Below, piece by piece: positions 5,795 through 17,590 of a stretch of DNA of 52,126 nt (positions within the stretch are counted from its first letter, which is position 1; each line of letters opens with the position of its first letter). Both the position numbers and the translations under genes were made by a program. The notes below the pieces were generated by a model. It searched no databases. It worked only from the letters and a program-made list of their open reading frames with translations, and was not told the origin of the DNA. Source of the DNA: Thermosyntropha sp. (GTDB taxonomy: Bacteria > Bacillota > Syntrophomonadia > Syntrophomonadales > Syntrophomonadaceae); assembly GCF_017656155.1 (NCBI RefSeq), contig NZ_JACDOH010000012.1, positions 1-52,126 of the forward strand, written 5' to 3'.

Positions 5795-7120
5795 TTGGAA
5801 AACGCACATGCCCTGGACAGGTTTTTTAAGATCAGTGAAAGAGGTTCATCAATAAAAACCGAGATTCTGGCGGGACTTACCACTTTTGTAACTTTGGGTT
5901 ATGTTATTTTTGTTAACCCGGCTATTTTAGCTGACGCAGGTATTCCTAAAGAAGCTGCTATTGCAGCTACTATTACTGCGACCGTTATAGCAACAATATT
6001 GATGGCGCTTTTTGCAAACTATCCTATTGCAGTTGCTCCAGGTATGGGGCTTAACGCTTTCTTTACCTATACAGTTGTTTTGGGATTTGGTTTGCATTGG
6101 ACAGTAGCTTTAGGTGCGGTATTCTTTTCAGGGGTTCTGTTCTTTATTCTGACTGTTACCAAGGTGCGGGCCTGGATTATTGATGCAGTTCCGCCGTCTT
6201 TGAGAGCAGCGATACCTGTTGGGATAGGGCTGTTTATCGCATTTATAGGATTAAAGAATGCAGGTATAGTTGTAGCAAATGAGGCTACTTTTGTAGGACT
6301 TGGCAATTTAAGTGCTCCTCCGACTCTGCTTGCTATATTTGGAGTAATTTTATCTGCAATTCTTATGGCTTTGAGCGTAAAAGGAGCTCTGATTATCGGC
6401 ATCCTTGGTACTACTATTCTTGGTATGATTGTAGGCGTTGTTCCTGCTCCGCATGGAATAAGCGATATTATGAGTTTTGACCTTCCCAGTTTGGCTCCTA
6501 CTTTTGGCAAGCTCGATCTTAAGGGAGCCTGGGAATTTGGGCTGTTTAACGTTATTTTTACTTTTACTATTGTTGAGCTTTTTGATAACATGGGAACCCT
6601 CATGGGACTTTTGAGAAAGGCAGGTCTCTTGGGTGATGAAGGACAGCCTCCTGAATTAGGCAAGGCTTTTTTAAGCGACTCTATCGGAACTATGGCCAGT
6701 GCTACCGTAGGAACATGTACGGTAACTTCCTACATTGAAAGTGCTGCCGGTATAGCTGAAGGTGGAAGAACTGGGCTTACTGCGATAACTGTAGCTGTAC
6801 TCTTTATTCTGGCTTTAGTTTTTGCTCCTCTTGTAGGCTTGGTTCCAGGTTTTGCAACTGCTCCTGCATTGATTATAGTTGGAGCTTTAATGCTTTCCGA
6901 AATTGTGCATGTAAACTTTGAAGATTTTACCGATGCATTTCCAGTATTCCTTACAGTAGTAGGCATGCCTTTGACTTACAGTATTGCAACCGGTATAGGT
7001 TTAGGGTTTATTTCCTATACCCTCATTAAGATTTTTACCGGCCGCTACAAAGAATTGCACTGGATGATGTATATAATAGCTGTTATGTTTGTTATAAACT
7101 TTGCGATGCGTTTACACTAA
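5795..7120 (+). CDS. NCS2-family purine permease (AzgA/PbuG-like)
   Basis: This 441-residue polytopic membrane protein has about 12-14 hydrophobic segments. It opens with FKISERGSSIKTEILAGLTTF, the start typical of the AzgA-like branch, and carries GMGLNAFF near residue 82 and FDNMGTLMGL near residue 265. Members are proton symporters for adenine, guanine or hypoxanthine. The start is TTG at 5795 with GGAGGG at the right distance. Adenine deaminase lies directly downstream on the same strand, so adenine or hypoxanthine is the likely substrate. No purine riboswitch core was found upstream, and a terminator follows the stop codon. Confidence 0.92.
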   Translation: MENAHALDRFFKISERGSSIKTEILAGLTTFVTLGYVIFVNPAILADAGIPKEAAIAATITATVIATILMALFANYPIAVAPGMGLNAFFTYTVVLGFGLHWTVALGAVFFSGVLFFILTVTKVRAWIIDAVPPSLRAAIPVGIGLFIAFIGLKNAGIVVANEATFVGLGNLSAPPTLLAIFGVILSAILMALSVKGALIIGILGTTILGMIVGVVPAPHGISDIMSFDLPSLAPTFGKLDLKGAWEFGLFNVIFTFTIVELFDNMGTLMGLLRKAGLLGDEGQPPELGKAFLSDSIGTMASATVGTCTVTSYIESAAGIAEGGRTGLTAITVAVLFILALVFAPLVGLVPGFATAPALIIVGALMLSEIVHVNFEDFTDAFPVFLTVVGMPLTYSIATGIGLGFISYTLIKIFTGRYKELHWMMYIIAVMFVINFAMRLH

Positions 7121-14605: not shown

Positions 14606-15268
14606 TTATTCTGCTTTTTTGAGCTGGGCAAACCATTTGGCATTATGATGAGAAGTATATTCAGCGTCTACATAACCGTCTATCATCATGGAGGCGAACT
14701 CTACCCTGGATTTGGGGTGGATTGCTGCCAGGAAGAAATGGCCTAAAATAGCTAAAATGAGGATTACTGCTGTCCAAAAATGTACTTTCCAACAAAGCCA
14801 GACTAATATTGCCGGCATTGTATCGCGTAAAAGCCACATGGGAAATCCAGTAACGATCATGAGTATGCATCCTATAATAACCAAAAGCCCCAGTATTTTC
14901 TGGCCGGCATTGTATTTATCCTGAGGAGGAATATGTTCAGCTTTGATAAAAGGTACATAACCTCCCATGGTTTTAAGCCAGCCGAAGTCATCTTTAGTAA
15001 AAGTAGTTATGGTATCAATAAACTTTGCAAATTTTTCAAAGTTGAACAAAACATAAATCAGGGGACCTAATGTGAAAACTACTCCTGTCCAGACATGGAC
15101 ATTAGAAGCATTGGCACTTCCGCCAAAGAGGTTATCAATGCTGGTTATGTCAAAGTAAAAACCTATTCCGGTTAATCCCAAGATAATAAAGCATATGAGA
15201 TGTATCCAATGCATGGTGCGGGTTTGTTCACTGTGTTTTAATACTTTACCTTTAATTTCACTCATCAT
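14606..15268 (-). CDS. Cytochrome b membrane subunit (formate dehydrogenase gamma/FdnI-like)
   Basis: This 220-residue protein has four hydrophobic segments and histidines placed as heme b ligands in the FdnI/HyaC group: MHWIHLICFIILGLTG near residue 20, SNVHVWTG near residue 57, and KVHFWTAV with LGHFFLAAIHP in the last helices. It would pass electrons between an exported oxidoreductase and the menaquinone pool. It is the last gene of an operon with hydA and hydB, 13 bp after hydB, so its partner here is an [FeFe] hydrogenase rather than formate dehydrogenase. Two adjacent ATGs (15268, 15265) follow AAGGAGGG; either may be used. Confidence 0.88.
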   Translation of the reverse strand: MMSEIKGKVLKHSEQTRTMHWIHLICFIILGLTGIGFYFDITSIDNLFGGSANASNVHVWTGVVFTLGPLIYVLFNFEKFAKFIDTITTFTKDDFGWLKTMGGYVPFIKAEHIPPQDKYNAGQKILGLLVIIGCILMIVTGFPMWLLRDTMPAILVWLCWKVHFWTAVILILAILGHFFLAAIHPKSRVEFASMMIDGYVDAEYTSHHNAKWFAQLKKAE

Positions 15269-15281
15269 AATCCCTCCTTAC

Positions 15282-15641
15282 TTAAGCTGCATGATGTCTG
15301 TGGGCTTCAAGCTCTTTAATAAGCTCAGGTATTTCACTGCCATATTTGGTGTGCAGGAGGTGATGAGACTTTTCAGTTAAAGGCTTAACTTCTCCAGGAG
15401 AAAGAAATTCTTTGTAGATTTGAATGATTTCTGGATTTTCATGGGATTTTCTTATGGTCATTCTTTCGTCTAAAGTGTAAAGTCCGGCAATGCGTTTTTC
15501 AATATATTTGTCACTTGCTTTAAAGATATCTATGCCGATTTTGCCGAGGATTCCAGCAAAGACAGCAGTTGCTGCGATTATACCTGTGCCTTTAAAAAAC
15601 TGGCGTCTGGTTATTCCTCCTCTTTCAACGAAGATATTCAT
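15282..15641 (-). CDS. hydB: [FeFe] hydrogenase small subunit with Tat signal
   Basis: This protein of about 119 residues begins with a twin-arginine signal, TRRQFFKG, followed by a hydrophobic stretch (IIAATAVFAGILG). The mature part carries the small-subunit pattern: IAGLYTLDERMTIRKSHENP, IYKEFL and KSHHLLHTKYG. It corresponds to the separate small subunit of Desulfovibrio-type periplasmic hydrogenase, which wraps the large subunit and carries it through the Tat pathway. ATG at 15641 fits GAGGTGAT; GTG at 15644 is an alternative. It lies 17 bp after hydA and 13 bp before the cytochrome b gene. Confidence 0.88.
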   Translation of the reverse strand: MNIFVERGGITRRQFFKGTGIIAATAVFAGILGKIGIDIFKASDKYIEKRIAGLYTLDERMTIRKSHENPEIIQIYKEFLSPGEVKPLTEKSHHLLHTKYGSEIPELIKELEAHRHHAA

Positions 15642-15658
15642 CACATATCACCTCTCTT

Positions 15659-16822
15659 TTAATAAGTATCCCGTCTGATTGGCTGCCCGCCACCGTTAAT
15701 ACAACCGCCAGGGCAGTTCATAACTTCGATAAAGTGGTATTTACTGCGTCCGGCCAGGACATCTTCGATTACTTCGTTTACATATTTAAGTCCGCTTACT
15801 ATGCATACATTAACCGGCACGGTTTTGCCCAGTTCTTTTATGGGGATATTTACTGTGGCTTCCCGTATTGGTTTTCTGCCGCGTACGGTTTTAAATTCTA
15901 CATTACCCAAAGATTGTCCGCTTAATATTTCATAAGCAGTACGCAAGGCTGCTTCCATTACTCCCCCGGTGACCCCAAATATAGTGGCAGCACCGGTTGA
16001 GGAGCCTATCAAACGGTCGGCTTTTTCATCCGGCAGACTTAAGAAGTTTATTCCAGCATCTTTAATCATTTGAGCCAATTCGCGGGTGGTTAATACTGCA
16101 TCTACATCCTGAAAACCGCTTGCTATCATTTCTTCGCGCTGACACTCGTATTTTTTAGCGGTGCAGGGCATAATTGAAACTACATACATGTCAGCCGGAT
16201 TTACATTTAATTTTTGTGCTGCATAAGTTTTGGCAACTGCTCCGAACATTTGCTGCGGTGATTTGGCAGATGAGATGTGAGGCAGTATTTTGGGATATCT
16301 GTCTTCCGCATATTTAATCCAGGCTGGACAGCATGATGTAAATTGCGGAAGCGGTCCTGATTTTTCATAACCGGGTACTCCTACATGTGCAAAAATACGG
16401 TGAATAAGTTCAGTTCCTTCTTCCATTATAGTCAGGTCAGCAGCAAATTCAGTGTCATATACTTTATCAAATCCTAGTCTTCTAAGAGCAGCGAACATTT
16501 TGCCTTTTACATTGGCTCCAGGCTCAAGGCCAAATTCTTCCCCTAAAGCTACCCGGACTGCGGGGGCGGTTTGGACAACTACTACTTTGCTAGGATCAGC
16601 TAAAGCTTTTTTGACCTGTTCTGCCATACTCATATCGACTATGGCTCCGAAGGGACAATTGATAAGACATTGTCCACAGTTGACGCATTTTTTGTGGTCA
16701 ATATAGTGCTTTTCCCCTAAGCGTCCTTTAATTGCTCCTGTGGGACAAACGGATGTACAGTGGTCACAGGATTTACAGCGGTCGGTAACATGGATAATTT
16801 CTTTGGTGACAACGGTACTCAC
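15659..16822 (-). CDS. hydA: [FeFe] hydrogenase large (catalytic) subunit, Desulfovibrio type
   Basis: This 387-residue protein has two N-terminal 4Fe-4S motifs (Cys 16, 19, 22, 26 and 46, 49, 52, 56). All three H-cluster signatures follow: FTSCCPAW (L1), MPCTAKKYE (L2) and MNCPGGCINGGGQP (L3). It catalyses reversible proton reduction. It lacks the N-terminal 2Fe-2S domain of cytosolic enzymes and ends just after L3, as expected when the C-terminal part is a separate HydB. It has no signal of its own and should be co-exported with HydB. Start is GTG at 16822 with GGGGAGGGAAGG upstream. With cytochrome b it forms a membrane-bound, outward-facing hydrogenase. Confidence 0.95.
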   Translation of the reverse strand: MSTVVTKEIIHVTDRCKSCDHCTSVCPTGAIKGRLGEKHYIDHKKCVNCGQCLINCPFGAIVDMSMAEQVKKALADPSKVVVVQTAPAVRVALGEEFGLEPGANVKGKMFAALRRLGFDKVYDTEFAADLTIMEEGTELIHRIFAHVGVPGYEKSGPLPQFTSCCPAWIKYAEDRYPKILPHISSAKSPQQMFGAVAKTYAAQKLNVNPADMYVVSIMPCTAKKYECQREEMIASGFQDVDAVLTTRELAQMIKDAGINFLSLPDEKADRLIGSSTGAATIFGVTGGVMEAALRTAYEILSGQSLGNVEFKTVRGRKPIREATVNIPIKELGKTVPVNVCIVSGLKYVNEVIEDVLAGRSKYHFIEVMNCPGGCINGGGQPIRRDTY

Positions 16823-17040
16823 AAAACCTTCCCTCCCCTTTAGATTAATTGTTTTTAAAAGTGAAAACTTTGATTTTCACCCCCACCCTTAATATAATTT
16901 TGGATTTAAAAAATTAATCCCTGAAAATAGATATGGTACTTTTTTGATTTTAATATATTACGGAACTTTTTTAAAAGGCTATTTATTTTTTATATACAAA
17001 TTATATGCGTTATTATCTAACATAATAATTAATTTTTTCA

Positions 17041-17157
17041 TTATAACATAATATAACGCATTTTTAAAATGACAGAACTAAAAAAGCCCGCTTTGTGAAA
17101 AGCGGGAAGAAAAAGATTGGGATTGTATGTAAAAAACCTGTGGCTTTTTACTGGCAT
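17041..17157 (-). other. Short open frame (38 codons) downstream of the riboswitch pair
   Basis: An ATG at 17157 with AAGGAGAAC upstream opens MPVKSHRFFTYNPNLF and runs to a TAA at 17041, straight through a terminator hairpin. The good ribosome site suggests that a gene once began here. The product resembles nothing recognised, and running through a terminator argues against a real protein. It is best seen as the stub of a lost riboswitch-controlled gene or as a leader peptide. Confidence 0.25.
17080..17106 (-). terminator. Intrinsic terminator between the riboswitch region and hydA
   Basis: On the minus strand CCCGCTTT (17106-17099) pairs with AAAGCGGG (17094-17087) around a four-base loop, followed by C and six T. 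It ends transcripts that come from the riboswitch region before they reach hydA, unless it is read through. Confidence 0.85.
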
Positions 17158-17263
17158 TTAGTTCTCCTTACCTTTTGTGTCCCGCTGTTAAGATTTTTAA
17201 CAGACTGCATTTTGTTGGACTAAAGATATAAATTATACCTTTTTGGGGTAAATTGGTTTTATC

Positions 17264-17366
17264 CCTTTTCTAAAACACGGGAGGCATAGCTGTTTTCGCC
17301 TATACCCATTGGCCCGGAAACCGTAGTGTTAAACCTTGGGTTTACAGGGCTCGGAGAACAAAAGTA
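17264..17366 (-). promoter_or_regulatory. Moco-type riboswitch, downstream copy
   Basis: Read on the minus strand this holds, in order, CTCCGAGC, a P3-like stem (TAAACC/GGTTTA), GCCAATGGG, an ATAG/CTAT hairpin, then GCCTCCCGTGTTTT. These are the conserved blocks I associate with the molybdenum/tungsten cofactor RNA motif. Presence of the P3 stem favours the Mo form over the W form. The same blocks recur in the second copy upstream. What follows in its transcript is a short open frame and a terminator, not a recognised molybdenum gene. Confidence 0.68.
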
Positions 17367-17379
17367 TGCGGTTTTAAAC

Positions 17380-17426
17380 AAAATAAAAAAGACAGGTGTT
17401 TTGGAAAAGAACAGTACACACCTGTC
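17380..17426 (-). terminator. Riboswitch-associated intrinsic terminator (expression platform)
   Basis: On the minus strand GACAGGTGT (17426-17418) pairs with ACACCTGTC (17399-17391), followed by six T. The loop carries CTTTTCCAAAACAC, which can instead pair with GTGTTTTGGAAAG at the 3' edge of the upstream riboswitch. Terminator and antiterminator therefore exclude each other, as expected of an expression platform. Confidence 0.75.
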
Positions 17427-17451
17427 CTAGGAACTTCATCATAAAAAACTC

Positions 17452-17555
17452 CTTTCCAAAACACGGGAGGCATAGCTGTTTCCAACTATACCCATTGGCT
17501 TAATTACCTTGGTTAAAAACTTTAGGTAAGAAAGCTCGGAGTTAAATATTTTATT
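17452..17555 (-). promoter_or_regulatory. Moco-type riboswitch, upstream copy
   Basis: The minus strand shows CTCCGAGC, a short TACC/GGTA stem, GCCAATGGG, an ATAGTT/AGCTAT hairpin with a GGAAAC loop, and GCCTCCCGTGTTTTGG. The blocks GCCAATGGGTATAG and AGCTATGCCTCCCGTG are identical in the other copy 90 bp away, while the P3 region differs. Conserved core with variable stems is what is expected of a structured RNA. A promoter lies just ahead of it and a terminator just behind. Confidence 0.72.
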
Positions 17556-17561
17556 GTAAGT

Positions 17562-17590
17562 ATATTACCATATGTTGTTAACAAAATCAA
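17562..17590 (-). promoter_or_regulatory. Promoter for the tandem riboswitch transcript
   Basis: On the minus strand TTGATT (17590-17585) and TAATAT (17567-17562) are separated by exactly 17 bases. Transcription would start close to 17555, right at the 5' edge of the first riboswitch. Confidence 0.7.

Follow-up and report, generated by a model that had tools for sequence, protein, structure and literature searches.

A tungsten/molybdenum-cofactor riboswitch array before the Hyd2 hydrogenase of Thermosyntropha probably controls a trans-acting antisense RNA against formate dehydrogenase mRNA

We analyzed a 52,126-nucleotide stretch of Thermosyntropha sp. DNA (the window; contig NZ_JACDOH010000012.1) that carries a tandem riboswitch array before the [FeFe] hydrogenase Hyd2. 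The array is probably a unit under tungsten/molybdenum (W/Mo) cofactor control that yields an antisense RNA acting in trans on the mRNA of the periplasmic selenocysteine formate dehydrogenase 2 (FDH-2). With somewhat less assurance, we propose that this RNA inverts an OFF cofactor riboswitch for FDH-2 and that the same switches directly release Hyd2 and FDH-4, such that Syntrophomonadaceae would choose between formate and hydrogen as interspecies electron carrier by their W/Mo cofactor status. At the level of sequence, we document the aptamers, the terminators, an antiterminator for aptamer 1, the complementarity to FDH-2, its covariation, the codon constraint at the target and the linkage of the antisense element to riboswitches.

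Results

Two riboswitch aptamers and one clear expression platform

The upstream part of the array contains the following features, all on the minus strand:

17553..17581 (-), promoter-like site (TTAACA, 17 nt, TACAAT) 5' of the array, found by consensus scan only
17433..17553 (-), Moco/Wco riboswitch aptamer 1, without the P3 stem (RF01055, 89.1 bits, E = 1.6e-20)
17448..17465 (-), 5' strand of the antiterminator, CGTGTTTTGGAAAGGAGT, within aptamer 1, with predicted pairing to 17412-17395
17385..17426 (-), terminator 1 (GACAGGTG...CACCTGTC TTTTTT) between the aptamers, a hairpin at 17426-17391 followed by T6
17247..17368 (-), Moco/Wco riboswitch aptamer 2, with a degenerate P1 and without P3 (RF01055, 50.1 bits, E = 4.4e-9)

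Both aptamers are genuine members of RF01055, as each scores above the gathering score of 36 of the Rfam covariance model. The original prediction of tandem Moco-type riboswitches with a promoter before them and a terminator between them is thereby confirmed, the promoter by consensus. The Rfam alignment has the P3 columns deleted for both copies and the P1 of aptamer 2 mostly broken. Regulski et al. linked a missing P3 to tungsten-cofactor (Wco) sensing, and by this correlative rule we assign both copies to the Wco type; the ligand of the array would be Moco or Wco. The tandem form was already known from S. wolfei and G. metallireducens (PMC2408646).

The 18-nt antiterminator pairing of aptamer 1 has a predicted energy of -21.6 kcal/mol, compared with a shuffle mean of -12.1 kcal/mol, and none of 300 shuffles was as low. 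Its partner (17412-17395) is overlapped by the 3' arm of terminator 1, and antiterminator and terminator 1 are mutually exclusive predicted folds. The terminator 3' arm has an alternative partner in the conserved 3' part of aptamer 1, and this anatomy suggests that the ligand-bound switch terminates and that the array probably works in the OFF direction in vivo. A terminator scan of the array revealed no terminator belonging to aptamer 2. Significant antiterminator pairing was detected in 12 of 31 riboswitch platforms, one of the 31 (that of aptamer 2 in the window) being misplaced. The same genome has two more Moco/Wco riboswitches, which by our reading precede genes for a metal-oxyanion-type binding protein and moaA.

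The array precedes the Hyd2 operon

The genes that follow form a hydrogenase operon:

17040..17068 (-), promoter-like site for hydA (TTTAAA, 17 nt, TATAAT, with TG before the -10), by consensus only
15659..16822 (-), [FeFe] hydrogenase large subunit, ortholog of S. wolfei HydA2 (PF02906, E = 2.7e-97)
15282..15644 (-), hydrogenase small subunit with a Tat-like signal (PF02256, E = 2.6e-22)
14606..15268 (-), cytochrome b561-type membrane subunit (PF01292, E = 4.1e-20)

The next gene thus encodes an [FeFe] hydrogenase, as had been proposed. The Tat-like signal of the small subunit matches PF10518 (TAT_signal) with E = 9.2e-4, under the Pfam cut-off. We compared 20 close hydA orthologs (73-87% identical), one of which sits on a single 2,936,195-bp genome (G021) that we take to be S. 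wolfei. Riboswitches precede hydA at 14 of these loci (9 tandem, 5 single); five loci have none and one is cut by a contig end. By sequence, the window operon is orthologous to Hyd2 of S. wolfei (Swol_1925-27; PMC11087674).

The view that the riboswitches control no obvious gene is wrong on two counts: Hyd2 is riboswitch-led in 14 of 20 relatives, and the element described below is antisense to the FDH-2 coding sequence. The idea of a lost target gene fails, since hydA is conserved behind the array in relatives. The conserved synteny also fits the suggestion that Mo or W tunes the hydrogenase by read-through, above all at loci where a riboswitch precedes hydA and the antisense element is absent (L036, L041, L044, L045, L051 and L053). 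In the window, hydA may also have its own promoter at 17068-17040, and read-through is here a candidate route.

The hydA promoter-like site is overlapped by an imperfect inverted repeat (ATGCGTTAT...ATAACGCAT, 17061-17005, minus strand), a possible operator. On a 9.4-kb contig of another genome (L145, G018:C37), two riboswitches precede hydA on one strand, and four more stand in a row before an fdh-type gene on the other. Two genomes whose hydA lacks a riboswitch (G022 and G035; L048 and L049) have GATTGGGATT twice in the hydA leader, shortly before GAGGTGA. This motif is complementary to the antisense RNA core described below, and hydA could be a second antisense target in these two genomes.

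The array ends in an element complementary to FDH-2 mRNA

Downstream of aptamer 2, we identified a small-RNA-like element:

17081..17158 (-), whole antisense element (match to covariance model R2, 83.1 bits)
17129..17151 (-), 5' hairpin of the element (GTAAAAAGCC ACA GGTTTTTTAC), predicted fold, with variants in relatives
17100..17125 (-), antisense segment CAATCCCAATCTTTTTCTTCCCGCTT, forming 26 uninterrupted pairs, one of them G:U, with the FDH-2 mRNA of the same genome
17080..17106 (-), element terminator (CCCGCTTT TCAC AAAGCGGG plus T6), its stem kept in class A elements
17041..17157 (-), stub ORF of 38 codons that overlaps the element, not conserved
G000:C6:7003-7028 (-), FDH-2 target site in the same genome

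Comparison of hydA leaders past the last aptamer revealed a common stretch, consisting of a short hairpin, CATACAATCCCAATCTTTTTCTTCCCGC and a terminator, in leaders that are otherwise dissimilar. When the relatives' elements were aligned, the antisense stretch was nearly invariant and the flanks drifted. We searched its 17-nt core in 61 genomes and found few matches per genome. The two exact matches in the Thermosyntropha genome are the element itself and the antisense strand of the FDH-2 codons for KWEEKDWDWM, and the element is therefore antisense to FDH-2 mRNA. The target gene, which encodes the periplasmic selenocysteine enzyme FDH-2, has an in-frame UGA and specifies a Tat signal.

The element is predicted to pair with this mRNA at 30 of 34 positions (-45.5 kcal/mol), and uninterrupted pairing spans 14-28 nt across 20 genomes that have both partners. 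In the S. wolfei hydA-leader copy, a C opposite an A splits the duplex, with an 18-nt run. In predicted folds the core is framed by the 5' hairpin and the terminator, with an unpaired probability of 0.97 in the window and 0.98 in S. wolfei. The element thus has features of trans-acting small RNAs (an intergenic position, its own terminator and an accessible complementary stretch) and probably exists as a discrete RNA. Its conserved single-stranded complement points to base pairing, not protein titration. Rfam has no counterpart of the element; its terminator hairpin alone gave a match, to Acido-Lenti-1 and below threshold. Behind the other riboswitches of S. wolfei, we found no similar antisense to fdh genes apart from dispersed repeats.

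A cis-antisense riboswitch was considered and rejected, as the overlap with the regulated gene is absent: FDH-2 lies on contig C6 and the array on C12. The 38-codon stub with a ribosome site, part of the original prediction, does exist as an ORF. No comparable ORF with a ribosome site was found in ten related leaders, which rules out the stub peptide as a conserved gene. The final terminator was likewise correctly predicted, at 17106-17080, and its place in a conserved antisense element had been overlooked. Among the three options first offered, the production of small regulatory RNAs is best supported by the sequences, and its putative target can now be named as the mRNA of a cofactor-dependent FDH.

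Covariation and codon constraint at the target

The element paired more strongly with the FDH of its own genome than when FDHs were exchanged between genomes (p = 2e-5 for 30 genomes and about 4e-5 for 14 genera), in a permutation test in which relatedness above the genus level stays in. Two sites covary. In the first, a Glu to Val change in FDH (GAA to GTA) is matched by replacement of U in the RNA with A or G, in G022, G065, G066 and G067 and separately in G062. In the second, FDH has changed from Asp to Glu (GAT to GAA) and the RNA carries U in place of A, in G003, G063 and G064 and separately in G016. At a third variable target site, the RNA does not follow the FDH change.

Two-fold degenerate codons of the target were conserved at 0.92, versus 0.62 for 30 such codons elsewhere in that region, and none of 20,000 random draws reached this value. 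The FDH genes in this test came from a protein search and so were not selected for the DNA motif. Synonymous constraint was equally strong in genomes without the element, yet these had been picked by the DNA motif, and we left this biased comparison out.

Distribution and genomic contexts

The element model matches 31 of 54 genomes of the family (15 of 23 genera). In a phylum sample of 299 genomes it matches eight, all within the family, and none of the other 291. A pattern scan of genome contigs gave, among the matches listed, mostly chance hits; riboswitches accompanied them only in Syntrophomonas or Syntrophomonadaceae records and one Gelria-labelled record. Out of 40 element matches, 28 have a Moco/Wco riboswitch upstream on their own strand at a distance of no more than 210 nt, for which we estimate a chance expectation below 0.2% per match (at most about 18 switches per 3 Mb).

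The hydA leaders are one context among several. By our reading, the element precedes a MOT1-like transporter gene in G020 and G033. It follows a tupABC-like operon in G002, is close to hypAB-like genes in G031 and G036, and stands alone before a transporter gene in G022 and G035. A less similar copy in the same order was found in G040, a member of another family. One motif (L128, G022) was dropped as it had no clear terminator. Two draft assemblies, G005 and G009, have the element and no FDH-2 that we could find.

The element also ends the fdh4 operon, which encodes another periplasmic formate dehydrogenase (FDH-4), in 7-8 genomes (S. wolfei, G011, G019, G026, G034, G065, G073 and G075), where it uses the operon terminator. 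FDH-4-type genes are riboswitch-led at nine of nine loci, compared with 1 of 24 for the antisense target FDH-2; copies without an adjacent switch therefore mostly end a riboswitch-led type of operon. The exceptions are G001, G062, G066:C87 and G018:C51. In G001, the closest relative, of the same genus, the element is kept in the hydA leader (L035, G001:C76) and no riboswitch is detectable there.

The second anti-FDH-2 element of S. wolfei (L356, oriented 6754-6822, corresponding to 2080679-2080747 on the minus strand) lies about 100 nt behind the stop codon of an fdhE-like gene. It is a candidate 3'UTR-derived small RNA of the riboswitch-led fdh4 operon directed against the paralog FDH-2. Elsewhere in S. 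wolfei (L069, 1210598, plus strand), a Moco/Wco riboswitch is followed by terminators with no obvious gene within 300 nt, and this region showed no complementarity to the S. wolfei loci compared. At three loci (L138, L273 and L165), Wco riboswitches and the element lie beside hypA/hypB-like genes and a cobalt/nickel-type ABC transporter, which fits the remark on a "nickel and zinc binding hydrogenase" in PMC9481103.

Discussion

Readings other than a trans-acting antisense RNA

One alternative is plain cis control. The tandem riboswitches would then regulate only hydA, by read-through, the final hairpin would be a terminator like any other, and the complementarity to fdh would be fortuitous or a leftover. 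The 14 of 20 riboswitch-led hydA loci agree with it, some of them having a terminator and then hydA, with no antisense element; tandem Wco switches upstream of a "ferredoxin hydrogenase" were already listed in a 2022 survey (PMC9481103). Nevertheless, the element accompanies riboswitches to sites distant from hydA. Neither chance nor a relic explains a near-invariant antisense stretch amid drifting flanks, its covariation with FDH codons, or target codons in FDH that are nearly frozen. We therefore consider cis control alone unlikely.

In class A elements, the duplex takes in bases of the 5' arm of the terminator that closes the element, so fdh2 mRNA might instead bind the nascent leader, invade that arm (17106-17100) and alter read-through into hydA, or the leader might act as a sponge. 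Class B elements (G002, G016, G031, G036 and G070) argue against this, as their duplex lies on the opposite side and involves little of the terminator arm, and copies behind the fdh4 operon or before other genes have no hydA to control. Such reverse action is improbable. The sign of the circuit could also be reversed, with the antisense RNA protecting FDH-2 mRNA or the riboswitch acting as an ON switch, given that we deduced the sign and that a clear antiterminator is present only for aptamer 1 of the window and some others. Antisense pairing inside a coding sequence is usually repressive, which suggests that pairing represses FDH-2. The Moco RNA of E. coli works as an OFF switch, with genetic support for cofactor binding (PMC2408646), and we regard a reversed sign as very unlikely.

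For Watson-Crick pairs, RNA complementarity equals DNA identity, and one protein could in principle recognize a common double-stranded site of 17-25 bp in both the fdh gene and the leaders; this is the least credible reading, as G:U pairs (duplex position 4, constant in class A; also G007, G062 and G066) keep RNA pairing and break DNA identity. In addition, the stretch is invariably followed by a hairpin and T-run, in a single orientation, predicted folds leave it single-stranded, and in fdh it falls inside the coding sequence.

A proposed circuit

The trans-acting antisense RNA would work as follows. When cofactor is plentiful, it would bind aptamer 1 (and aptamer 2, insofar as this still works), terminator 1 would form, the antisense RNA would not be made and FDH-2 would be translated. 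Under cofactor scarcity, the 3' part of the aptamer would be free to pair with the terminator 3' arm and transcription would continue. The resulting RNA, consisting of hairpin, single-stranded complement and terminator, would form a duplex of about 26-30 nt with the fdh2A coding region, 5' of the selenocysteine codon, and FDH-2 translation would be blocked or the mRNA exposed to RNases. The membrane hydrogenase Hyd2, expressed by read-through or from its own promoter, would then take over electron disposal, as would the riboswitch-led FDH-4 in relatives. An OFF switch would thus silence an RNA that silences FDH-2, and FDH-2 would be made only when its cofactor is present.

Whether formate (Fdh2) or hydrogen (Hyd2) carries electrons from S. 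wolfei to methanogens is disputed between laboratories, and the authors ascribe the difference to "growth condition" (PMC4324140, PMC5101538, PMC11087674). The papers name their media by citation and give no list of trace metals. One data set has 18,471 counts for Fdh2 and 15 for Hyd2 (PMC11087674); in another, hydrogenases are abundant and FDHs much lower (PMC4324140). This reciprocal expression agrees with the circuit in outline, although the match is not clean. Growth on butyrate raised hyd2 about 20-fold (PMC5101538) and, in another laboratory, raised both FDH-2 and a tungstate-uptake protein (PMC3582634), and other controls must therefore act.

If the proposed circuit is true, W/Mo cofactor supply would be a concrete variable behind the Fdh2/Hyd2 disagreement in S. 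wolfei. It would also extend riboswitches to a base-pairing RNA that targets the mRNA of an enzyme using the sensed cofactor, and offer a way for an OFF riboswitch to turn a gene on. The setting is a family of methane-community bacteria, in many species of which the element is followed by a hydrogenase that could replace FDH. Trace-metal dosing is practised in anaerobic digesters, which would give the choice of carrier practical weight.

Comparison with known systems

Earlier work covers the aptamer class, its tandem arrangement and its association with a hydrogenase. In the literature we searched, which left most subscription journals outside, we found no paper joining riboswitch, small RNA and Syntrophomonas, and none in which a Moco/Wco switch governs an antisense RNA that acts in trans on formate dehydrogenase. 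The array shares the conserved core, GNRA tetraloop and overall fold of the tandem RF01055 form. Earlier reports on RF01055 describe only protein-coding targets or convergent cis-antisense, whereas here the product would include an antisense RNA to a cofactor-using enzyme.

In Listeria Rli55 and Enterococcus EutX, a cobalamin riboswitch determines whether a full-length regulatory RNA is made that controls an enzyme needing the sensed cofactor. The array resembles them in that a riboswitch, here directly 5' and on the same strand, would gate a regulatory RNA for a cofactor-dependent enzyme. However, those RNAs sequester an ANTAR protein, and the RNA proposed here would base-pair with mRNA. Pairing in trans is known from the SAM riboswitch RNAs SreA and SreB of Listeria, which pair with prfA. 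There, the aptamer-containing terminated RNA itself pairs and the ligand leads to its production; here, a separate downstream element would pair and the ligand is predicted to stop its synthesis. Cis-antisense riboswitches (Listeria pocR and the C. acetobutylicum ubiG operon) likewise control an antisense transcript, and MOCO cases have been predicted (PMC9943018). These overlap a convergent neighbor, whereas the target here is elsewhere in the genome. Finally, the copies behind the fdh4 operon, which use the operon terminator, resemble 3'UTR-derived small RNAs such as SdhX (PMC6393394), with the difference that the parent operon is of a riboswitch-led type and the putative target is a paralogous enzyme.
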